Made by a program: the position numbers and the translations under genes | Source of the DNA: Carboxylicivirga linearis | GTDB taxonomy: Bacteria > Bacteroidota > Bacteroidia > Bacteroidales > Marinilabiliaceae | Assembly (NCBI RefSeq): GCF_018271995.1 | Contig: NZ_JAGUCO010000014.1 | Span: 1 to 64,000 of the forward strand | DNA: 64,000 nucleotides | Direction of reading: 5' to 3' | The notes under the pieces: model-generated | What the model was told of the DNA's origin: nothing | Database searches by the model: none | What the model saw: the letters and a program-made list of their open reading frames with translations, nothing else | Part shown: positions 18,608 through 29,399 of the stretch, in pieces | Layout of the letters: every line of letters starts with the position of its first letter | Position numbering within the stretch: position 1 is the stretch's first letter

Positions 18608-18927
18608 AGTCTTAGTTTTTTAATATTTAACTTTTAATAGTTAATATCGTATTTTTTGAATTATTTAAGAAAGATTTTAAAATCCATTCCACAATCCTTA
18701 AACAAAGTAAATAGATTCTACTTTTACCAAACAATCCATTTCTTATAAGCCTAACCATATGCTTATTATCATTTTTTCGATAGGATAAACAATAGATAAC
18801 ATTTGAAGTAAAATCATCTGAAACCAAGAGAAATATCAGACTAGTAGCCTAAGTATTAAAACATTTCTGAATTTTAATACTATTTTTGTAGAAATATTTT
18901 TTTTTGCAAACCTTCATCACCTCTCGA
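18608..18927. other. Intergenic region upstream of the efflux operon
   Basis: 320 bp, strongly AT-rich. The only structured part is the palindrome and promoter box at 18852-18888. A 66-codon minus-strand frame at 18627-18827 has no recognisable motif and is not called. Confidence 0.5.
18852..18888 (+). promoter_or_regulatory. Palindromic operator abutting the efflux promoter box
   Basis: AGTATTAAAA (18852-18861) and TTTTAATACT (18872-18881) are perfect 10-bp inverted arms separated by 10 bp. The last base of the right arm is the first of TATTTTTG (18881-18888), an exact Bacteroidota -7 box, placed 40 bp before the ATG at 18928. A dimeric repressor bound here would cover the region between -33 and -7. 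No TTTG -33 box is seen. Confidence 0.55.
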
Positions 18928-20097
18928 ATGATAGTGAAACTTAACAACAATACTTTACCAAAAGTATTCATCACTCTGATATGTATTATTGGCTTATACA
19001 GCTGTAGTCAAAAAGAAGAAACACACCCAATTGTTATTGTAGAAAAACCTGTTAAGCAAGACATTGAAGTATTCGGCGAATATGTAGGTCAGCTAACTGC
19101 CCGACAAAAAGTTGAAGTTAGAGCCAGAGTTGATGGATTTCTTGAAAGCATGCATTTTCAGGAAGGAAAGTTGGTTAAAGAAGGTGATGTTTTATTTACC
19201 ATAGAACCATCTCCTTATGAAGCAAGGGTAAACCGTGTTAAAGCCCAATTAGCTCAAGCAAAAGCTGCTGCTGCAAAAGCAAAAAGAGATGTTGATCGAT
19301 TAAAGCCATTATATGAGCAAAATGCAGCCAGTCAGTTGGATTTGGACAATGCAATTACTTCATTGGAAAATGAGCGTGCCAACATAATGATGTATGAGGC
19401 TGAACTTTCGCAAGCAGAATTAGAATTAAGCTTTACCAAAGTAAAGTCACCTCTAACTGGTTATATCGGAGAACGTCAGGTTGATATTGGAACCCTTGTG
19501 GGATCTAAAGGAGCTTCACTACTAACATCCGTTTTTCAAACTGATACCGTTTTTGTTCATTTCCACATGACGGCCTTAGATTATTTGAACAGTCAGCAAA
19601 GTAATGTAAACCTAACCAAAATGGATACGACCAGAAGGTCGTTTCAGCCAACTGTAATGGTTACCAAAGCCGACAGGTCGGAATACCCATTGAAAGGAAT
19701 TGTTGATTTTGCAAACCCTCAGGTAGATTCCAAAACCGGAACGTTTACTTTGAGAGCTGAAATACCAAATCCAAACCGGGAATTATTACCCGGACAGTTC
19801 ACTCGGGTTAAGGTACTTTTGAACGTAATTGAAAATGCAGTACTCATACCAAAGAAATCAATTATTATCGAAAAAGGTGGTGAATTTGTTTTTGTAATGA
19901 GATCTGATAGTATTGTTGAAAAAAGGTTTATTCAAACAGGTGATGAATTAAAATCGTCTGTTGTAGTAAACAGAGGCCTGCTTTCATGGGAAAAAGTTGT
20001 AACAGAAGGACTTCAAAAACTACAACACGGAATAAAAATAATACCTACCACCCCAACGGATTCAATTTGGATAAACAAACCTAAACTGGAGGATTAA
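18928..20097 (+). CDS. RND efflux pump periplasmic adaptor (membrane fusion protein), lipoprotein
   Basis: This 389-residue protein would link the inner-membrane RND pump to the outer-membrane channel. The signal segment ends in IGLYSC, a lipobox. Next come a barrel-sandwich (lipoyl-like) half near RARVDGFLESMHFQEGKLVKEGDVLF (given in outline only: residues about 65-90), an alpha-hairpin rich in Ala/Lys (about 100-165), the second lipoyl half (SPLTGYIGERQVDIGTLV) and beta-barrel and membrane-proximal domains (LLPGQFTRVKV). The ATG at 18928 is preferred over a TTG eight codons upstream because it directly precedes the signal peptide. It is the first gene of a three-gene efflux operon. Confidence 0.92.
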   Translation: MIVKLNNNTLPKVFITLICIIGLYSCSQKEETHPIVIVEKPVKQDIEVFGEYVGQLTARQKVEVRARVDGFLESMHFQEGKLVKEGDVLFTIEPSPYEARVNRVKAQLAQAKAAAAKAKRDVDRLKPLYEQNAASQLDLDNAITSLENERANIMMYEAELSQAELELSFTKVKSPLTGYIGERQVDIGTLVGSKGASLLTSVFQTDTVFVHFHMTALDYLNSQQSNVNLTKMDTTRRSFQPTVMVTKADRSEYPLKGIVDFANPQVDSKTGTFTLRAEIPNPNRELLPGQFTRVKVLLNVIENAVLIPKKSIIIEKGGEFVFVMRSDSIVEKRFIQTGDELKSSVVVNRGLLSWEKVVTEGLQKLQHGIKIIPTTPTDSIWINKPKLED

Positions 20098-20099
20098 GA

Positions 20100-23000
20100 A
20101 TGAAATTAGGATTGTTTATTGATAGACCTGTCCTTTCGATGGTAATTTCTATACTAATTGTCATTTTAGGATCGATAGCTATATTTATACTTCCCATTGA
20201 TCAGTATCCGCAGATAACACCACCATTGGTTAAAATCAGTGCCAGTTATCCGGGTGCCGGAGCAACCACCGTTGCGCAAGCCATAGCCACACCTATTGAG
20301 CAACAATTGAACGGAACTCCCGGAATGATTTATATGGAATCAACCAGCTCAAATTCCGGTTCATTAAACATCAATGTTACCTTTGAAGTAGGTACCGATC
20401 CTGATATTGCTGCCGTTGACATTCAAAATAGAGTTAAACTGGCAGAATCACGATTACCGGCTGAAGTTGTTCAGAACGGTATAAATGTTGAAAGACAAGC
20501 TGCTTCTCAGCTCCTAACCATCTCATTAACATCCGAGGACCCAAAATTTGATGAAATATATTTGAGTAATTATGCTACCATCAACATTCTGGATGTAATC
20601 CGAAGGGTGAATGGTGTTGGTAGAGTATCTAATATAGGTAGTCGTTATTATTCAATGCGTATTTGGGTATACCCCGATGCGATGGCCGGATTTGGATTAA
20701 CGGTAACCGACCTGCAAAGTGCCATTCGTGATCAGAACCGTGAATCGGCCGCCGGCGAATTAGGTCTGCAACCTATCTCAGATGCTGATATCACCATTCC
20801 GCTTCAAACTTCGGGACGATTAGAAAAAGCTGAAGATTTTGAAAAAATTGTTATTCGTGCTAATCCCGATGGATCAATCATACGCTTAAGAGACGTAGCC
20901 CGGGTTGAACTGGAAGCTTCGAGCTACAGTCAAGAGTCGGGTATGGATAATAAAAATGCTGCTATTTTAGGTATTTATCTCTTGCCTGGCGCCAATGCTT
21001 TGGAGGTTGCTCAGAATGTAAGAGAAGCCATGGAAGAAATCAGCCTCAACTTTCCTGAAGGCATTACATATGATATTCCTTTTGACATGACGGAATATAT
21101 TTCGGCATCCATCAAGGAAGTTTATACAACCTTATTCGAAGCTCTTTTCTTAGTTGTGTTGGTTGTGTTTCTATCGTTACAAAATTGGCGTGCTACATTG
21201 GTTCCAATCATTGCCGTACCCATTTCACTTATCGGAACATTTGCCTTTATGCTGGCCATGGGATTCTCAATCAACTTACTAACCTTACTGGGATTGATAT
21301 TGGCTATTGGTATTGTGGTAGATGATGCCATTGTTGTGGTTGAAAATGTAGAACGCTTAATGGCTGAACGGAATATTTCAGCCCGTGAAGCAACCCACAT
21401 TGCAATGAAAGAACTGGCCGGAGCATTAATTGCTACATCACTGGTTTTGGCTGCTGTATTCGTACCTGTGAGTTTCCTTTCTGGTATTTCAGGTCAGTTA
21501 TACAGACAGTTTTCAGTTACCATTGTTGTATCAGTATTGCTGTCAACAGTTGTAGCCATGACTTTAAGTCCGGCATTATGCGCCTTACTTTTAAAGCCCG
21601 AAACCAAGAAGAAAAACAAAGTATTTCAAGCTATCAATAATTGGTTAACAACCGGTGTTAATCAATATTTGAAATACATCAATTTATCTATAAAGAACCC
21701 CAAAAGAGTGTTAGGTGGATTTGGGATGGTTTTGATTCTGATATTTGTGCTTTTCCGCGTTGTACCTACCTCATTCATTCCGGAAGAAGATCAGGGTAAA
21801 TTTACGATTGAAATAGAATTACCCGAAGGAGCAACATTACATAGAACAGCTGATATTACTCAACGAGCTGTTGATTATATTCTGCAAAACCCATATGTAA
21901 AGAATGTACAAAATGTAACAGGTAAAAGTCCACGTTTGGGAACTTCTCAAAGTAGATCTGAGTTAACTGTTTTATTAAAAGATTGGGATGACAGGGATGA
22001 TGCAGAAGGTAAAATCAATACGATTATTCAGTCATTAAAAGATGAATTTTACTATTATCCCGAAGCACAATTCTATCTTTCAAAACCTCCTGTAATTCCA
22101 GGATTAGGTAGCTCCGGAGGATTCGAGATGCAACTACAGGCAAAAGGTGATGCTAGTTTTGATGATTTGGCAGCTGCCGTAGACACCTTGATTTATTATG
22201 CCAATCAGCAAAAAGAACTGCAAGGAGTTTCATCCTCATTACAGGCTGAAGTACCACAACTCTATTTCGATGTAAATCGTGATAATGCTAAATTTTTAGG
22301 TATTCCTTTAGGTGATATTTATACCTCAATGAAATCGTTTTTGGGAGCCATGTATGTGAACGACTTTAACATGTTTAACCGTGTATATAGAGTTAACATT
22401 CAAGCCGATGAACAATTCCGTCATCAAAAAGAAAACCTAAATTTGTTTTTTGTACGTGCTCAAAATGGTTCAATGGTTCCGGTTACTGCGTTGGGAACAT
22501 TCGAATACACAACAGGACCTGGTAGCATTAAACGTTTTAACATGTTTACAGCAGCAGTTATTCGAGGCGAACCGGCTTCAGGTTACAGTTCTGGTCAGGC
22601 TATGCAACTAATGGAAAATTTAGTCAGAGATAAGCTGCCTGAAAATATTGGCTTGGAATGGAGTGGTTTATCATACCAGGAGAAACAAGCTGGCGGACAA
22701 ACCGGATACATTATGCTATTAGTTATTGTTTTTGTATTTCTGTTTTTAGCGGCTCAATACGAAAGCTGGAGTATACCAATTGCCGTAATGCTATCTTTAC
22801 CTATTGCTGCATTAGGTGCTCTATTAGGTATTTGGGTAACAGGACTAGAAAATGATATTTATTTCCAGATTGGATTGGTTACTTTAATAGGATTAGCTAC
22901 TAAAAATGCTATTTTAATTGTTGAAGTTGCTAAACAACAAATAGAAAATGGCGCAACAGTGCTTGAAGCAACCCTCAAAGCTGCTGAGATGCGTTTCAGA

Positions 23001-23213
23001 CCCATTGTAATGACTTCTCTGGCCTTTGTATTAGGAATGATTCCATTAGTATTTGCATCAGGGCCTGGTTCTGCCAGTCGTCATTCCATTGGTACAGGAG
23101 TATTCTTTGGTATGCTTGTAGCCATTACAATAGGTATTGTATTTGTACCTTTCTTCTTTCACCTTATCTATTCGTTTAGAGAAAAACGTAATAAAGAAAT
23201 TGTAAGCAAATGA
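20100..23213 (+). CDS. RND multidrug efflux transporter, AcrB/MexB-like (HAE1 family)
   Basis: A 1037-residue inner-membrane proton-driven exporter, the usual length for the family. It starts with the typical cytoplasmic/first-helix segment (FIDRPVLSMVISILIVILG). Two large periplasmic loops follow TM1 and TM7. The TM4 segment GIVVDDAIVVVENVERL (about residue 400) carries the paired aspartates of the proton relay. YESWSIPIAVMLSLPIAALG and LATKNAILIVE mark the second half. Sequence type points to hydrophobic/amphiphilic drugs rather than metals, though the substrate is unknown. GGAGG lies 8-12 bp before the ATG, an unusually clear Shine-Dalgarno for this genome. The start is 2 bp after the adaptor stop, and the 3' end overlaps the channel gene by 4 bp. 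Confidence 0.95.
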   Translation: MKLGLFIDRPVLSMVISILIVILGSIAIFILPIDQYPQITPPLVKISASYPGAGATTVAQAIATPIEQQLNGTPGMIYMESTSSNSGSLNINVTFEVGTDPDIAAVDIQNRVKLAESRLPAEVVQNGINVERQAASQLLTISLTSEDPKFDEIYLSNYATINILDVIRRVNGVGRVSNIGSRYYSMRIWVYPDAMAGFGLTVTDLQSAIRDQNRESAAGELGLQPISDADITIPLQTSGRLEKAEDFEKIVIRANPDGSIIRLRDVARVELEASSYSQESGMDNKNAAILGIYLLPGANALEVAQNVREAMEEISLNFPEGITYDIPFDMTEYISASIKEVYTTLFEALFLVVLVVFLSLQNWRATLVPIIAVPISLIGTFAFMLAMGFSINLLTLLGLILAIGIVVDDAIVVVENVERLMAERNISAREATHIAMKELAGALIATSLVLAAVFVPVSFLSGISGQLYRQFSVTIVVSVLLSTVVAMTLSPALCALLLKPETKKKNKVFQAINNWLTTGVNQYLKYINLSIKNPKRVLGGFGMVLILIFVLFRVVPTSFIPEEDQGKFTIEIELPEGATLHRTADITQRAVDYILQNPYVKNVQNVTGKSPRLGTSQSRSELTVLLKDWDDRDDAEGKINTIIQSLKDEFYYYPEAQFYLSKPPVIPGLGSSGGFEMQLQAKGDASFDDLAAAVDTLIYYANQQKELQGVSSSLQAEVPQLYFDVNRDNAKFLGIPLGDIYTSMKSFLGAMYVNDFNMFNRVYRVNIQADEQFRHQKENLNLFFVRAQNGSMVPVTALGTFEYTTGPGSIKRFNMFTAAVIRGEPASGYSSGQAMQLMENLVRDKLPENIGLEWSGLSYQEKQAGGQTGYIMLLVIVFVFLFLAAQYESWSIPIAVMLSLPIAALGALLGIWVTGLENDIYFQIGLVTLIGLATKNAILIVEVAKQQIENGATVLEATLKAAEMRFRPIVMTSLAFVLGMIPLVFASGPGSASRHSIGTGVFFGMLVAITIGIVFVPFFFHLIYSFREKRNKEIVSK

Positions 23214-24562
23214 AATTAAATCATATCATATTTATCTTTCTGATTTTCATGTTTATTGGCTGTAAAATTGGCAAACAATATGAATCTCCAGAGATAAACA
23301 TGCCTGACACCTATCAATCCAATTTATCGGATACCAGTACGGTTGCCGATATTGACTGGTGGGAAGTGTACAACGATTCATTATTAGTCAAATACATTAA
23401 TCTGGCTATTGAAAACAATCAGGATCTAAAGATTGCTATTTCAAGAGTTGAAGAATATCGTTCACTGAAACGAATATCTGAAAGTGACTTACTTCCATCT
23501 ATCAGCATTTCAGGAGAGCGCGAACATGAAGTCAGTTCCGGAAGCATTAATGAAACAGATAATGAATTGGTTGCAGAGCTATCGTGGGAACTTGATTTAT
23601 GGGGGCGGCTGAGATGGCAACGCGATGCAGGTATAGCCGATTATATGGCAACCGCTGAAGATAAAAATGCTGTCTATCAATCGTTAATTGCCAATGTTGC
23701 TACAACTTATTTTGAGTTAATGGCAGCCAAACGCGAACTGGATATTATACAACAAACAGCTGTATCGCGCGAAGAAGGTGTCAAAATCGCGGAGCTTCGT
23801 TACAAGGGTGGATTAACATCAGAAACCCCTTTACAACAAGCTGAGGTTGAGCTAGCGAAAACACTTACCCTTGTTCCGGAAGTTAAGTACACAATTCGCA
23901 AAAAGAATAACCTATTATCAACATTAATGGGGCAATTTCCAGAAAACACCTTAATATCAACCTACCTACTAGAACACAAATTACCTGACAGTGTCCTCGT
24001 TGGAATACCTTCTGATTTATTATCACGCAGACCTGATGTTCGTAAAGCAGAACAAGAAGTTATTTCGGCTAATGCTAAAGTGGGAATGGCATTTACCAAT
24101 ATGTTTCCCCGAATTTCGTTATCGGCAGAATATGGTTACGAAAGCGAGGCTTTATCTGACTTATTCAGCTCACCTTATAATTATTTATACGGACAACTTT
24201 TAAGTCCCATTTTTAATGCCGGGGCAAATCGTGCACGTCATAAGGCAGCCAAAGCTGTGTTGGAGCAAAAGGCTCTTACCTACGATAAAGTGGTTTTAAA
24301 AAGCTTCGAAGAAACCAGTAACGCATTGGGGAATGTTCATCGAGCTAAGTCTGTCCGTAATTCTTTAATCAAACTTGAAGAATCATCCCGCACTTACCTA
24401 AAACTAGCTAACCTTCAGCACATAAACGGAGTTGTAAGTTATATTGACGTACTAGATGCGCAACGCCTTTTGTTTGATGCCGAAATAAGACTAAACAATG
24501 CAATCCGAGATGAAAAAATATCCTACGTTAATCTTTACAAATCACTGGGTGGTGGCTGGTAA
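23210..24562 (+). CDS. Outer-membrane efflux channel, TolC/OprM (NodT) family lipoprotein
   Basis: This 450-residue protein would form the exit duct of the pump. The N-terminus ends in MFIGCKIG, a lipobox, as in OprM. The OprM family signatures DWWEVYNDSLLVKYINLAIENN, used by residues about 45-66, SRRPDVRKAEQEV (about 270) and the repeated alpha-helical outer-membrane efflux units are present. The ATG overlaps the RND transporter stop (ATGA, 23210-23213), showing translational coupling. No terminator was seen in the 69 bp before the next gene, but that gene has its own promoter. Confidence 0.93.
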   Translation: MKLNHIIFIFLIFMFIGCKIGKQYESPEINMPDTYQSNLSDTSTVADIDWWEVYNDSLLVKYINLAIENNQDLKIAISRVEEYRSLKRISESDLLPSISISGEREHEVSSGSINETDNELVAELSWELDLWGRLRWQRDAGIADYMATAEDKNAVYQSLIANVATTYFELMAAKRELDIIQQTAVSREEGVKIAELRYKGGLTSETPLQQAEVELAKTLTLVPEVKYTIRKKNNLLSTLMGQFPENTLISTYLLEHKLPDSVLVGIPSDLLSRRPDVRKAEQEVISANAKVGMAFTNMFPRISLSAEYGYESEALSDLFSSPYNYLYGQLLSPIFNAGANRARHKAAKAVLEQKALTYDKVVLKSFEETSNALGNVHRAKSVRNSLIKLEESSRTYLKLANLQHINGVVSYIDVLDAQRLLFDAEIRLNNAIRDEKISYVNLYKSLGGGW

Positions 24563-24580: not shown

Positions 24581-24617
24581 TTTGGAAGATACAAACATTA
24601 AACGTACATTTGACGTT
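24581..24617 (+). promoter_or_regulatory. Promoter and embedded operator of the Nudix-type regulator
   Basis: TTTG (24581-24584), 20 bp, then TACATTTG (24605-24612) make a full Bacteroidota -33/-7 promoter. The -7 box lies inside AACGTACATTTGACGTT (24601-24617), an inverted repeat AACGT-N7-ACGTT. The ATG follows 14 bp later. The same 17-bp pattern recurs at 25293-25309 before the SDR gene, so both are likely sites of the encoded regulator, which would block its own promoter. Confidence 0.75.
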
Positions 24618-24631
24618 ATTATATTATTCAA

Positions 24632-25270
24632 ATGAGCGAAAAAATCATCAATTTATCGGTAGACTGCGCTATATTTGGCTATGAAAATGGCAAATTAAAG
24701 TCACTATTGATCAAAAGAGATAAAGAACCATGCTCCAATCAGTGGTCATTGCCTGGTTCTTATGCTTATTTTGATGAAACAATTGATAATGCAGCCCGCC
24801 GGGTACTTTTTGAACTAACAGGTATCGAAAATATCTACTTAACCCAGGTAAAGGTATTTGGTGAAGTTAACAGATACCCTTCTCATCGCGTTGTATCCAT
24901 ACTATACTGCGCACTAATTAAATCTGACCTTTTTGAATTAATCGCCGGTTCGCACGCAAAAGAGGTTAATTGGTATGATGTCAATGAGGTTTCAGAACTC
25001 CCTTTTGATCACAACCAAATGATTAATACTGCACTACAATGGTTAAAGGAAGAAATTTGGCGTAAACCAATTTCAATAAACCTATTACCTGATAAGTTTC
25101 CTCTAAACCAATTGCAGGATCTGTTTGAAGCTATTTTACAAGAGGAGATTGATAATCGGAACTTCAGAAAGAAAGTCATTAATATGGGCTTGGTTGAAAA
25201 ATTGAATGAGAAGACCAAAGGAGGTCAGCAACGTCCGGCATTTTTATATCGACTCAAAAAATCAATCTAA
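24632..25270 (+). CDS. NrtR-like transcriptional regulator with degenerate Nudix domain
   Basis: A 212-residue protein with an N-terminal Nudix fold (about 1-140) and a C-terminal winged helix (about 150-210; LQDLFEAILQEEIDNRNFRKKVINMGLVEKL), the layout of the NrtR family. The Nudix box at about residues 46-70 reads AARRVLFELTGI where active enzymes have AARRELEEETGL. Two of the three catalytic glutamates are replaced (by V and L), so it should sense a ligand rather than hydrolyse one. Characterised relatives include NrtR (NAD metabolism) and the Bacteroides arabinose regulator AraR. Its neighbours here, SDR and UxuA, point to a hexuronate or aldonate ligand, an inference. Matching palindromes precede this gene and the SDR gene, suggesting autorepression plus control of the module. 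Confidence 0.85.
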   Translation: MSEKIINLSVDCAIFGYENGKLKSLLIKRDKEPCSNQWSLPGSYAYFDETIDNAARRVLFELTGIENIYLTQVKVFGEVNRYPSHRVVSILYCALIKSDLFELIAGSHAKEVNWYDVNEVSELPFDHNQMINTALQWLKEEIWRKPISINLLPDKFPLNQLQDLFEAILQEEIDNRNFRKKVINMGLVEKLNEKTKGGQQRPAFLYRLKKSI

Positions 25271-25292
25271 AAAAAATTTACACAAAATAGTT

Positions 25293-25309
25293 AACGTACA
25301 TCTAACGTT
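25293..25309 (+). promoter_or_regulatory. Second operator of the Nudix-type regulator
   Basis: AACGTACATCTAACGTT has the same AACGT-N7-ACGTT inverted repeat as 24601-24617 and differs at two spacer bases. It ends one base before the SDR start codon, so bound protein would block initiation or a weak local promoter (TACATCTA matches the -7 box at six of eight consensus positions, including the free ones). Confidence 0.7.
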
Positions 25310-25310
25310 T

Positions 25311-26129
25311 ATGAATAATCCAATGTTTGATTTATCAGGAAAAGTTGCCGTTGTTACTGGCGGCGGCGGTGTTTTAGGCGGAAGTATCGCCCGCAGTTTA
25401 ATTGAAGTGGGTGTTAAAGTTGCCATCCTTGATATCCGCGAAGAAAACCTCAACATACGGGTTGAAGAATTAAAACAATTAGGCGGCGAAGTAAAAGGTT
25501 TTGTATCCAATGTGCTTGATATGGATATCCTGAAGAATACGCGCAAAGAAATTCTGGATGAATGGGGACGCATTGATATACTTATCAACACTGCCGGAGG
25601 TAATCTACCGGGTGGAACTTTGGAAGAAAGCCAAACCGTATTTGATATGAAGATTGAAGAATTCCAACGTGTAACCGATCTAAACCTAAACGGAACCGTT
25701 TACCCTAGTTTGGTATTTGGTAAAGCAATGGCCGATCAGGGCGAAGGAAGCATTATTACCATCTCATCTATGGCAACTTATTCAGCCATCACAAGGGTTC
25801 CGGGATATTCTGTTGCCAAAACAGGTATCAATATTTTCACTCAATGGATGGCCATGGAAATGGCCTTGAAATTCGATGAAAAGATTCGTGTTAATGCTAT
25901 TGCTCCAGGATTCTTTATTGGAGATCAAAACAGAAAAGTATTGATTAACCCGGATGGAAGTTATACCGAGCGCAGTCAGAAAGTAATTGCACGTACACCT
26001 ATGAAACGTTTTGGTGACATCAAGGAACTAAACGGCGCCGTTCAGTTTTTATGTTCCGATGCGGCCTCATTTATTACAGGTGTAATTCTTCCTGTTGATG
26101 GAGGTTTTAGCTCATTTAGTGGAGTCTAA
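25311..26129 (+). CDS. Short-chain dehydrogenase, probable D-mannonate oxidoreductase (fructuronate reductase)
   Basis: A 272-residue classical SDR. It has the nucleotide-binding TGGGGVLGGSIA (about residues 17-28), NTAGG, the catalytic Ser in TISSMA and YSVAKTG with the Tyr/Lys pair. The C-terminal DGGFSSFSGV is typical. The next gene is UxuA, and in Bacteroidota an SDR of this kind commonly replaces UxuB for interconverting fructuronate and mannonate. That assignment rests on context, since SDR substrates cannot be read from motifs. The ATG at 25311 is chosen because it follows the operator and gives a normal SDR N-terminus; an in-frame upstream extension overlaps the regulator gene and the operator. 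Confidence 0.8.
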   Translation: MNNPMFDLSGKVAVVTGGGGVLGGSIARSLIEVGVKVAILDIREENLNIRVEELKQLGGEVKGFVSNVLDMDILKNTRKEILDEWGRIDILINTAGGNLPGGTLEESQTVFDMKIEEFQRVTDLNLNGTVYPSLVFGKAMADQGEGSIITISSMATYSAITRVPGYSVAKTGINIFTQWMAMEMALKFDEKIRVNAIAPGFFIGDQNRKVLINPDGSYTERSQKVIARTPMKRFGDIKELNGAVQFLCSDAASFITGVILPVDGGFSSFSGV

Positions 26130-26140
26130 TACTAGTACAT

Positions 26141-26183
26141 AGTATCAAGATTATTTTCAGAGTTTAATAGATGTCTTGATACT
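26141..26183. repeat. Inverted repeat between the SDR and uxuA genes
   Basis: AGTATCAAGA (26141-26150) and TCTTGATACT (26174-26183) are perfect 10-bp inverted arms with a 23-bp loop. No T-run follows, so it is a poor intrinsic terminator. It may be a regulatory site or an mRNA-stabilising stem in the 119-bp gap. Confidence 0.4.
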
Positions 26184-26248
26184 TATGTCTTGCATCATAA
26201 TACTCATTTTAACTTTCTTCTATTAACAATGAATAACAATCTAATAAT

Positions 26249-27451
26249 ATGGCTTTAGAAAAAACCTGGAGATGGTTCGGCGAAAAAGATCCGATAACTC
26301 TTGATATGTTGGTGCAAATGGGTGTTGAAGGTGTAATTACGGCTCTACATCACATTCCAAATGGAGAAATCTGGACGATTGAGGAGATTATGAACGTTAA
26401 GACTCAGATTGAAAGTCGTGGGCTGCGATGGAGTGTTGTTGAAAGTCTGCCGGTGAGTGAAGGAATTAAAATCTGTAACGACGATCGTGCGCGTTTAATT
26501 GAAAATTACCAGCAGAGCGTTCGTAATTTGGGAGCGTGTGGCATCGATACCATCTGCTATAACTTTATGCCTGTGCTGGACTGGGCTCGTACCGATTTAC
26601 ATTATAAACTTGCAAATGGAGGCGAATCGATGTATTTCGACTTCCCTACTTTTGTGGCTTTCGATGCCTATATATTAAAACGTCCCGGTGCTGAAAACGA
26701 TTATCCTACTGAAATAATAAAGAAAGCCAAAGAAGTATTTTCTTCGATGAGTTCCGAGGAAGCAGAGGAACTGGCTTATAATATTATTGTGGTTACTCAG
26801 GGCTTTATTGATGGAGTGATAGACGGAAGTGTGCCTGATCCGAAAAAGTTGTTTCTCGAATTTATCGATCGTTATAAAGGCTACGATAAAAACAAAATGC
26901 GCGAGAACCTAAAGGCATTTTTGGATGATGTTATTCCGGTAGCTGAAGAAGCAGGTGTAAAACTGGCCATTCACCCCGATGATCCTCCTTTCCCGGTACT
27001 GGGCTTACCTCGTATTATTGGTCAGCTTGATGATTACGAGTGGTTATTTAACGCCAATCCCTCTCCTAACAACGGCATTACTTTTTGTGCCGGATCGCTT
27101 TCTGCCCGAAAGGAAAATAACCTGGTGGAGATAATTGAGAAATGCGGTGACAAGATTCACTTTGTGCATTTACGTAACACACAACTTTTGCCCGATGGCA
27201 GCTTTTTTGAATCGGGGCATTTGGCAGGTAGCCAAAATATGGTTCAAATTATGACAGCCCTACTAAAAGAGCAGAAGAAGCGCATTGCCACAGGACGAAA
27301 AGATACTCGATTGCCTGTACGCCCCGATCATGGTATTAAAATATTGGATGATTATAAAAACAAATACAATCCGGGATATCCGCTTATTGGACGATTAAAA
27401 GGTTTAGCCGAGTTAGATGGATTAATGGCCGGAATCAGTAGCTTTATTTAA
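26249..27451 (+). CDS. uxuA: Mannonate dehydratase
   Basis: UxuA converts D-mannonate to 2-keto-3-deoxygluconate in glucuronate breakdown. The 400-residue protein matches family length. It starts with KTWRWFGEKDPITLDMLVQM, residues about 4-23, and carries GVEGVITALHHIPNGEIW and metal-site segments around LAIHPDDPP (about 235), TFCAGSL (about 276), FVHLRN (about 309) and PVRPDHG (about 352). No signal peptide, so cytosolic. It lies 119 bp after the SDR gene and 10 bp before the esterase gene. Glucuronate released by the GH67 enzyme of the xylan locus is the obvious supply. The isomerase UxaC and the KDG kinase/aldolase are not in this window. Confidence 0.95.
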   Translation: MALEKTWRWFGEKDPITLDMLVQMGVEGVITALHHIPNGEIWTIEEIMNVKTQIESRGLRWSVVESLPVSEGIKICNDDRARLIENYQQSVRNLGACGIDTICYNFMPVLDWARTDLHYKLANGGESMYFDFPTFVAFDAYILKRPGAENDYPTEIIKKAKEVFSSMSSEEAEELAYNIIVVTQGFIDGVIDGSVPDPKKLFLEFIDRYKGYDKNKMRENLKAFLDDVIPVAEEAGVKLAIHPDDPPFPVLGLPRIIGQLDDYEWLFNANPSPNNGITFCAGSLSARKENNLVEIIEKCGDKIHFVHLRNTQLLPDGSFFESGHLAGSQNMVQIMTALLKEQKKRIATGRKDTRLPVRPDHGIKILDDYKNKYNPGYPLIGRLKGLAELDGLMAGISSFI

Positions 27452-27461
27452 ACTTTGCGAC

Positions 27462-29399
27462 ATGAGAAGCATCAGATTCATCTTGTTATTACTTATTTGG
27501 TCTTCACTTTCAATTACCGCTCAAGTACGATTACCCAAACTAATAAGTGATGGAATGGTATTGCAGCGCGATAAGGAACTGACTCTTTGGGGTTGGGCCT
27601 CACCTAATGAAAAAGTGGAAATTGATTTCAAAAATCATCAATACAAAACCATTACTGATTCGGATGGCAAGTGGCAGATTCAACTCCCCTCCCAATCTCC
27701 CGGAGGGCCTTTTAAAATGAAGATCTCAGCTTCGAATCAAATTCTGATTAATGATATATTAATTGGAGATGTTTGGCTTTGTTCGGGGCAATCCAACATG
27801 GAACTTCCCATCAGCCGTGTGGAACCCAAATATCGTAAGGAGATTAAAAGAATTAATAATACAGGTATTCGTCAGTTTAGAGTGCCTTATAACTGGGACT
27901 TTAACCAAAAGCAGGCTGATTTAAAGGGTGGGAAATGGTTAGCTGCAACGCCCGAAAACATCATGAGCTTTTCAGCAGTAGCCTATTTCTTTGCCCAAAA
28001 AGTGCAGCAAACACAACAGGTTCCCATCGGCATTATTAATGCAAGTATGGGAGGATCGCCGGTTGAAGCCTGGCTGAGTGAAGATGATTTAAAACCATTT
28101 AAAGATGCATATAAGGAGCTTCAAAAGTTTAAAGATTCCACTGTTATTAACGCCATTGAAGCCAGCGACAAACAAAGATCGGATACATGGTTTAGCCAAT
28201 TAGCTCAAAATGATAAAGGCCGGAAAAACGCAGATTGGACTACTACTGATTTAAATGATAACGACTGGCAAACAGCCATCGTTCCGGGATATTGGAAACA
28301 AGATGATCTTGAAAACCTGAATGGAATTGTTTGGTATCGAAGAAGCTTTAGTTTATCCGAAAAATCAGCTAATCAACCTGCCGAACTGGATATGGGACGC
28401 ATTGTTGATGCCGATTCTGTTTTTATCAACGGATCTTTTATCGGAAATACAACTTATCAATATCCTCCTCGCAGATATAAGGTACCTGAAAACACATTGA
28501 AATCAGGCAAAAACACCATTGCTGTTAAAGTAATTTCGCAGATTGGAACCGGAGGTTTTGTACCTGACAAACCGTATGAGTTACGCACTGGTTCCGAATC
28601 AATCAACTTAAGCGGTACGTGGAAATATAAAATAGGAGCATCGATGGCACCACTCGAAGGTCCCACCTTTATCAGATGGAAACCCGCAGGATTATACAAC
28701 GGGATGATTGCCCCATTAACCAACTTATCAATTAAAGGCGCTGTTTGGTACCAGGGAGAATCAAACGTTGATAATGCCAGCCAATACAAAGAGCGATTAT
28801 CTGCTATGATACAAAACTGGCGCCGCGAATTCAACGAGGGAGAGCTTCCTTTTGTAATTATTCAGCTGGCAAACTATTTAGAACCTGATAGCTTGCCCAA
28901 AGAAAGTGATTGGGCTGTATTAAGAGATGCACAATTTAAGGTTGCGCAAAAAACAGAGCACTGCCAGAGTGTTAACATCATCGATTTAGGAGAATGGAAT
29001 GATATTCATCCTCTTAATAAAAAAGAGGTGGGTAGACGCACTGCTTTGGCTGCTGAAAAAGTAGCTTATGGTAAAAAGGTTGTTTGTAGCGGCCCTGTAT
29101 TTGACAGTTATTCAATCAATAATTCAAAAGTTGAACTCAGCTTTAAATATGTTTATAACGGGCTTCGAATAAAAGAAGGAAACAGTCTTAATGGTTTTGC
29201 CATTGCCGGAAAAGATGGGCAGTTTATTTGGGCGCATGCCGAAATAAAAGGTAATAAAGTAATGGTTTGGCACGAAAGTGTTGATAAACCAACCGCAATA
29301 AGATACGCCTGGGCTAATAATCCGGATCAAGCCAATCTCTATAATACAGAAGGATTACCTGCCGTTCCGTTTAGGTTAGAGATACGAAAGGCAAAGTAA
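27462..29399 (+). CDS. Secreted sialate O-acetylesterase-type (SASA) esterase with beta-sandwich insert
   Basis: A 645-residue exported SGNH-fold esterase. A signal peptide ends near SITAQ (about residue 20). The catalytic domain is split: LCSGQSNMEL (about 106) carries the serine, WYQGESNV (about 428) another conserved block, and EWNDIHPLNK (about 514) the Asp-x-x-His pair. Between them, about residues 230-400 resemble a GH2-type sugar-binding jelly roll (DNDWQTAIVPGYW, GIVWYRRSF). Members are annotated as sialate O-acetylesterases, but related ones remove acetyl groups from xylan (CE20). Neighbouring uronate genes and the xylan locus favour acetyl-xylan or acetylated glucuronoxylan fragments, an inference. 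It is 10 bp after uxuA, so co-transcribed. Confidence 0.85.
   Translation: MRSIRFILLLLIWSSLSITAQVRLPKLISDGMVLQRDKELTLWGWASPNEKVEIDFKNHQYKTITDSDGKWQIQLPSQSPGGPFKMKISASNQILINDILIGDVWLCSGQSNMELPISRVEPKYRKEIKRINNTGIRQFRVPYNWDFNQKQADLKGGKWLAATPENIMSFSAVAYFFAQKVQQTQQVPIGIINASMGGSPVEAWLSEDDLKPFKDAYKELQKFKDSTVINAIEASDKQRSDTWFSQLAQNDKGRKNADWTTTDLNDNDWQTAIVPGYWKQDDLENLNGIVWYRRSFSLSEKSANQPAELDMGRIVDADSVFINGSFIGNTTYQYPPRRYKVPENTLKSGKNTIAVKVISQIGTGGFVPDKPYELRTGSESINLSGTWKYKIGASMAPLEGPTFIRWKPAGLYNGMIAPLTNLSIKGAVWYQGESNVDNASQYKERLSAMIQNWRREFNEGELPFVIIQLANYLEPDSLPKESDWAVLRDAQFKVAQKTEHCQSVNIIDLGEWNDIHPLNKKEVGRRTALAAEKVAYGKKVVCSGPVFDSYSINNSKVELSFKYVYNGLRIKEGNSLNGFAIAGKDGQFIWAHAEIKGNKVMVWHESVDKPTAIRYAWANNPDQANLYNTEGLPAVPFRLEIRKAK

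Follow-up and report, generated by a model that had tools for sequence, protein, structure and literature searches.

A regulator gene and a hexuronate operon

The window (the whole stretch of DNA analysed here, 64,000 nucleotides from Carboxylicivirga linearis) encodes an NrtR-family regulator followed on the same strand by uxuB, uxuA and an esterase gene. One palindrome lies before the regulator gene and a second of the same pattern lies before uxuB. The features are as follows.

24581–24584, + strand: putative −33 element (TTTG) of the regulator promoter
24601–24617, no strand: predicted operator 1, AACGTACATTTGACGTT (AACGT-N7-ACGTT), upstream of the regulator gene
24605–24612, + strand: putative −7 box, TACATTTG, within operator 1
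24632–25270, + strand: NrtR-family regulator, 212 amino acids, with a Nudix-like sensor domain and an NrtR winged helix (Pfam, PDB and fold)
25293–25309, no strand: predicted operator 2, AACGTACATCTAACGTT (AACGT-N7-ACGTT), upstream of uxuB
25326–26129, + strand: uxuB-like SDR of the D-mannonate oxidoreductase subfamily (NCBIfam PRK08277.1, 366 bits; cut-off, 281)
26249–27451, + strand: uxuA, mannonate dehydratase (TIGR00695, 476 bits; cut-off, 199.55)
27462–29399, + strand: SASA-type acetylesterase with an inserted GH2-N-like domain (Pfam PF03629 and PF02837)

The hexuronate module proposed in a first-pass annotation of this DNA is borne out by the SDR, which falls in the D-mannonate oxidoreductase subfamily (score computed on 25314–26126), and by the mannonate dehydratase, which is the sole UxuA match of the genome (one PF03786 match). 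Comparison with relatives places the start of uxuB at 25326; a start at 25311 is possible, and the 25206 of the mechanical open reading frame (ORF) list was set aside. The order regulator–uxuB–uxuA is kept in all six genomes that carry the regulator, despite differing flanking genes, and the esterase gene lies 3′ of uxuA in four of them. The window also codes for GH67, GH10, GH43 and GH3 proteins, for SusC/SusD-type proteins and for a two-component regulator of the hybrid kind. The GH67 protein is an alpha-glucuronidase, and we read this whole set of genes as a glucuronoxylan locus.

The gap between uxuB and uxuA ranges from 17 to 598 bp across the six genomes; it holds an inverted repeat in the window (26130–26248) and an extra 126-amino-acid ORF in genome G436 (L092:10470–10850). 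Between a metallo-hydrolase-like gene and the regulator gene lies an RND-type efflux operon, recognized by eye (18904–24562), which is present at the same place in G410 (L088) and absent there in G398. Relatives of uxuBA in L015 and L166 (probably one genome), L167 and L182 have a divergent regulator that appears by eye to be AraC-like, and regulator exchange at uxuBA therefore seems to have occurred.

An NrtR-family protein with a degenerate Nudix box

Profile and fold comparisons agree with the initial description of the regulator as NrtR-like. NrtR_WHD (4.8e-25, 87.9 bits) and NUDIX (2.8e-10, 40.7 bits) are both matched above the Pfam cut-off, AraR_C is matched at 1.8e-10, and the fold corresponds to 5bs6 and 3gz6. 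The best PDB sequence match is AraR (5bs6, 5.9e-53; 42–46% identity), to which the AF2 model (mean pLDDT 85.0, pTM 0.84) aligns with a Foldseek TM of 0.81. The Nudix box, S43-x5-E49-x7-R57-V58-L-x-E61-L62-x-G-I, is degenerate, as had been noted: two of its four glutamates are replaced (Val58 and Leu62), and its first glycine is Ser43.

AraR (BT0354) of Bacteroides thetaiotaomicron is an NrtR-family L-arabinose repressor (PDB 5BS6, 5DDG and 5DEQ; PMC4666351). The regulator shares with it the fold, the same two Nudix glutamate losses, the Arg/Arg/His sugar residues, an N7-spaced operator (a predicted one for the regulator) and the position of the regulator gene within its own catabolic operon; it differs in its uxuBA operon and in the clade and residues described below.

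A further comparison is SoNrtR of Shewanella oneidensis, which responds to ADP-ribose (PDB 3GZ5 and 3GZ6) and has the domain plan and winged helix in common with the regulator. An NAD-type NrtR responding to ADP-ribose could explain the shared fold, the 29% identity to SoNrtR and the 139-bit match to the NAD-type model (NtrR equivalog, NF050029, NCBIfam), but we give this explanation almost no weight. The 139 bits fall below the curated cut-off of 400, the ADP-ribose contacts Lys76, Arg98 and Asn43 of SoNrtR are replaced by Leu62, Ser84 and Lys31, and there are no NAD genes in the operon or among the neighbours.

Two palindromes before adjacent genes

Both palindromes lie where they were first reported, and they are the sole AACGT-N7-ACGTT matches with no mismatch in the 64 kb. 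They stand immediately upstream of the regulator and SDR genes: 14 bp separate the end of operator 1 from the regulator gene and 16 bp separate the end of operator 2 from uxuB. When up to two mismatches are allowed, the pattern is not enriched in the window (30 found versus 23.1 expected). The 6.05-Mb genome holds four exact copies, two of which are the window pair. The third is inside the ribosomal protein L22 ORF, and the fourth (L004:1501–1517, G000:C126) is intergenic, 42 bp upstream of a methyl-accepting chemotaxis receptor gene. These two extra copies amount to ~0.02 expected per window, and their matrix scores (9.4 and 10.6) lie below that of the lowest training site (16.3). The site before the chemotaxis gene, at 10.6, is probably a chance occurrence; as an exact site without a uronate link, it counts against the hexuronate reading.

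Exact 5-7-5 palindromes number 88 in the window when any half-site is allowed, so a lone palindrome means little. At the level of sequence, the noteworthy part is that a single half-site is repeated before two adjacent genes and retained in relatives. A held-out matrix, trained on the five other genomes with that of the window left out, ranks the window pair first (21.3 and 20.0; next, 11.8), and a matrix from the three more distant genomes gives the pair 16.7 and 16.4 (next, 14.3).

Orthologues and conservation of the sites

The regulator is present in 6 of 71 genomes of the family, including that of the window, at 68–100% identity, and the next match is below 50%. Among the matches listed from 393 order-level and 395 phylum-level genomes, which are overlapping and partial samples, none besides the window's own exceeds 50% identity. 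A TAG in the G436 regulator gene is its own stop codon.

In two trees (79 and 42 rows), the regulator and the four other orthologues included form one clade with 100/100 support and a long stem (0.92 and 0.96 in length). This clade falls outside the clade with AraR in both trees and, in one, is separate from the Bacteroides-type XylR candidates L215 and L216. XylR (BT0791) of Bacteroides is described as an NrtR-family protein and a predicted regulator of xylose use (PMC4666351 and PMC3878776), and has family and catabolic role in common with the regulator. In the trees, L215 and L216 stand in for BT0791, which is not among the rows; we took them as XylR because the adjoining gene is, by eye, a xylulokinase. 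The regulator differs from these candidates in its clade and is 39% identical to L215.

The palindrome described in the first-pass annotation is kept before the orthologues in all six genomes, where an ACGT-N7-ACG(T/C) site occurs upstream of the regulator and of uxuB alike. The regulator-side site begins 29–37 bp 5′ of the regulator start, and in the alignment of the six genomes it contains the sole run of invariant columns 5′ of the regulator that lies outside coding sequence. In an order-wide search, none of 29 UxuA loci, scored with 1.5-kb flanks that in some cases miss the stretch upstream of uxuB, had a site at the lowest training score (best, 12.5 versus 16.3).

A putative promoter under operator 1

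The proposal that operator 1 swallows the putative −7 box of the regulator is supported. TTTG-N20-TACATTTG is present at 24581–24612, but the promoter pattern lacks significance by itself because TTTG-N19..21-TAnnTTTG, which has this one match in the window, would be expected 2.24 times by chance. The −33 and −7 labels follow a known promoter consensus. The TTTG of the putative −7 box falls within site 1 in all six genomes; the box has the form TAnnTTTG in three and TAnTTTG in the other three, and a TTTG lies 20 bp upstream of it in four (absent in G410 and G435). No clear promoter was found at operator 2.

An activator or dual regulator, for which site 2 would recruit polymerase or loop with site 1 over about 692 bp, would account for the lack of a clear promoter overlapping site 2 and for the presence of both sites in six of six genomes at a spacing of 690–694 bp, near 66 helical turns. 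We regard this as improbable, given that site 1 covers the putative −7 element of the regulator's own promoter and that sugar releases AraR from DNA in the published account, which is the behaviour of a repressor (PMC4666351). Moreover, a nearly fixed gene length suffices for the constant spacing, and looping as a deduction from that spacing was rejected for this reason.

Recognition residues and half-sites

In the crystal structure of AraR with DNA, Lys179 contacts G7, Arg180 intercalates and Asn181 contacts A18 of the operator GTGT-N7-ACAC (PMC4666351). The sites of the regulator have the same N7 geometry. The AraR DNA-contact residues Lys179, Arg180, Asn181, Lys184, Lys204 and Arg205 correspond to Asn175, Arg176, Asn177, Lys180, Gln200 and Arg201, and hence two of the six differ. 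Unlike AraR, the regulator has Asn175 for Lys179 and ACGT for GTGT half-sites, the operator base that corresponds to G7 being A.

This pairing of residue and base extends to homologs. Among 79 upstream regions, 30 contain one of three half-site palindromes (GTGT, ACGT or AAGT), and all 30 match the residue class at AraR position 179 with none off class, where the classes were defined after inspection and the 79 rows are related rather than independent. GTGT was found for 14 of 44 homologs with Lys179 and 2 of 6 with Arg179 (16 of 50 together), ACGT for 5 of 8 with Asn179, and AAGT for 9 of 21 with Pro, Thr or Ala; in shuffled controls, the mean count in a cell ranged from 0.00 to 0.45. The stretch searched upstream of the remaining 49 homologs holds none of the three exact palindromes, and the same is true upstream of the XylR candidates L215 and L216. 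By comparison, the predicted binding of the regulator to ACGT-N7-ACGT is well supported, and a general rule by which residue class sets the NrtR half-site is plausible.

Asn179 occurs at three separate places in the tree: the regulator clade, L122 and L020. AACGT sites accompany it in the first two, and none was found upstream of L020 (G004). In L122 (2821–5196, genome G435), where Asn179 arose separately according to the tree, the NrtR paralog is divergent to a mannitol dehydrogenase gene with AACGT-N7-ACGTT before it, and it is possibly a polyol regulator. A second mannitol dehydrogenase operon in G435 has similar sites (L134:1546–5197). Because this second Asn179 paralog has the same half-site as the regulator, cross-talk in G435 is possible.

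The ligand pocket

The AraR sugar triad Arg34/Arg86/His131 is kept in the regulator as Arg29, Arg81 and His127. In contrast to AraR, in which Phe36 and Phe49 form part of the hydrophobic surround of arabinose C4 and C5 (PMC4666351), all six orthologues have Lys (Lys31) and Tyr (Tyr44) at these positions. Lys31 could meet the C6 carboxylate of a ligand.

The same sites might instead be bound by a protein that senses a pentose of xylan, xylose or arabinose, with uxuBA induced by a proxy sugar. The retained triad would suit such a sensor, the operon abuts the xylan locus, and in G788 and G890 XylR-type relatives that lie beside a xylulokinase-like gene (by eye) have uxuBA downstream. We nevertheless consider it unlikely: neither AraR nor the Bacteroides-type XylR candidates fall in the regulator clade, Phe36 and Phe49 are replaced in every orthologue, and the operon is without a pentose gene. 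Another NrtR gene in this genome adjoins an araA-like gene (by eye).

The XylR-type arrangement, with uxuB–uxuA directly downstream of the NrtR gene and its xylulokinase-like neighbour, was seen in L096, L194 (G788) and L200 (G890); G788 and G890 belong to another family of the phylum. We also considered whether a basic residue at AraR position 36 marks uronate sensing in general and dropped the idea, as it fails outside the regulator clade. XylR-type L081, L083 and L196 have Arg there, and L081 alone among the three has a uxu link within the DNA examined; the uxu-linked L200 has Val.

Sites beyond the operon

Additional sites had been envisaged before uxaC, kdgK and GH67 genes, and these did not materialize. 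Five of the six uxaC loci were scored (L106 was not scorable) and the best score was 3.7; the GH67 gene of the window has no site before it; and a 16-bp pattern had no match in 14 kb of the uxaC locus of the window's genome, where kdgK lies. The kdgK, kdgA and LacI labels at uxaC loci are assignments that we made by eye. Nor was a site found before the GPH or SusC gene in the window, or before GH115 at 21 of 22 matches (one of the 22 is below the family cut-off). The sole exception is G436, in which twin sites lie ~50 bp upstream of the GH115 alpha-glucuronidase gene, a case that favours the link to hexuronates.

WACGTA-N6-ACGY has 62 placements across the six genomes, and in every one of these genomes the reversed control has more; a large regulon was rejected on this basis. 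Thirteen placements are core sites, and 24 of the other 49 were inspected. All seven non-core placements in the window's genome are inside mechanical ORFs. The informative ones are those at GH115 in G436 and at the mannitol genes in G435; three further intergenic placements are in L133, L135 and L136. The exact copy upstream of the chemotaxis-receptor gene is not matched by this pattern.

The single uxaC of the window's genome lies away from the window. The uxaC loci inspected (G000, which is the window's genome, G410, G435 and G436, with G398 left out) each have their own SDR and, in all except G000, a second uxuA; in G438, a second uxuA with an SDR lies away from uxaC.

UxuR, UxaR and KdgR of Bacteroides resemble the regulator in their predicted glucuronate-pathway target, but they are LacI-family proteins (PMC3878776, Table 2), an unrelated family of which the regulator is not a member. 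The palindromes could serve such a LacI-type uronate factor and the NrtR gene could be a bystander, given that a LacI-like gene (by eye) adjoins uxaC in the window's genome. This is very improbable: the sites co-occur with the regulator and are absent at the 29 order-wide UxuA loci, the ~1.3 kb upstream of the uxuB–uxuA–esterase operon of G329 has no site, the scored uxaC loci lack one, and both the N7 spacing and the match at Asn175 suit an NrtR protein.

A model for hexuronate-responsive control

We judge it probable that the protein is an autoregulated NrtR-family repressor of the hexuronate operon that responds to a hexuronate-pathway ligand, encoded beside a glucuronoxylan locus. A dimer would bind ACGT-N7-ACGT; at site 1 it would cover the −7 element of the regulator's own promoter, giving autoregulation by occlusion, and at site 2, directly before uxuB, it may act on an internal promoter or as a roadblock. 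With both sites bound, the regulator–uxuB–uxuA(–esterase) operon would be held off. A hexuronate-pathway compound, for which mannonate, fructuronate, glucuronate and KDG are candidates, would then enter the dead Nudix pocket (Arg29, Arg81, His127 and Lys31) and turn the winged helices away from the DNA by rotation, the effect that L-arabinose has on AraR. The operon would process glucuronate that the neighbouring locus releases from glucuronoxylan.

The regulator is well supported as a branch of new specificity within a known family, its ligand being a prediction. If true, uronate-pathway specificity would join the NAD, arabinose and (predicted) xylose specificities described for the NrtR family in the open-access literature found. 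In that literature, where absence is not proof, AraR and XylR are the only sugar-type NrtR regulators named. The model also suggests that uxuBA can be controlled by a protein family other than the LacI regulators predicted in Bacteroides.

A broader reading, which we offer tentatively and hold at somewhat less than even chances, combines a third sugar branch that senses uronic or aldonic acids, with Lys31 gripping the carboxylate, and a DNA code at positions 179/180 on the N7 frame. Under this code, Lys/Arg would read GTGT, Asn would read ACGT and Pro-Gly would read AAGT. The variability of NrtR operators would then reduce to a testable rule in which residues 179/180 set the half-site and the spacing is fixed. 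If true, the code would help the five NrtR-family paralogs of the C. linearis genome to stay apart, although two of the five fall in one class, and the rule could aid regulon prediction for the many uncharacterized NrtR paralogs in Bacteroidota. Elsewhere in this genome (L104, G000:C88) and in L013, an NrtR-family gene adjoins galT/galK-like galactose genes (by eye), which suggests a galactose branch of the family.
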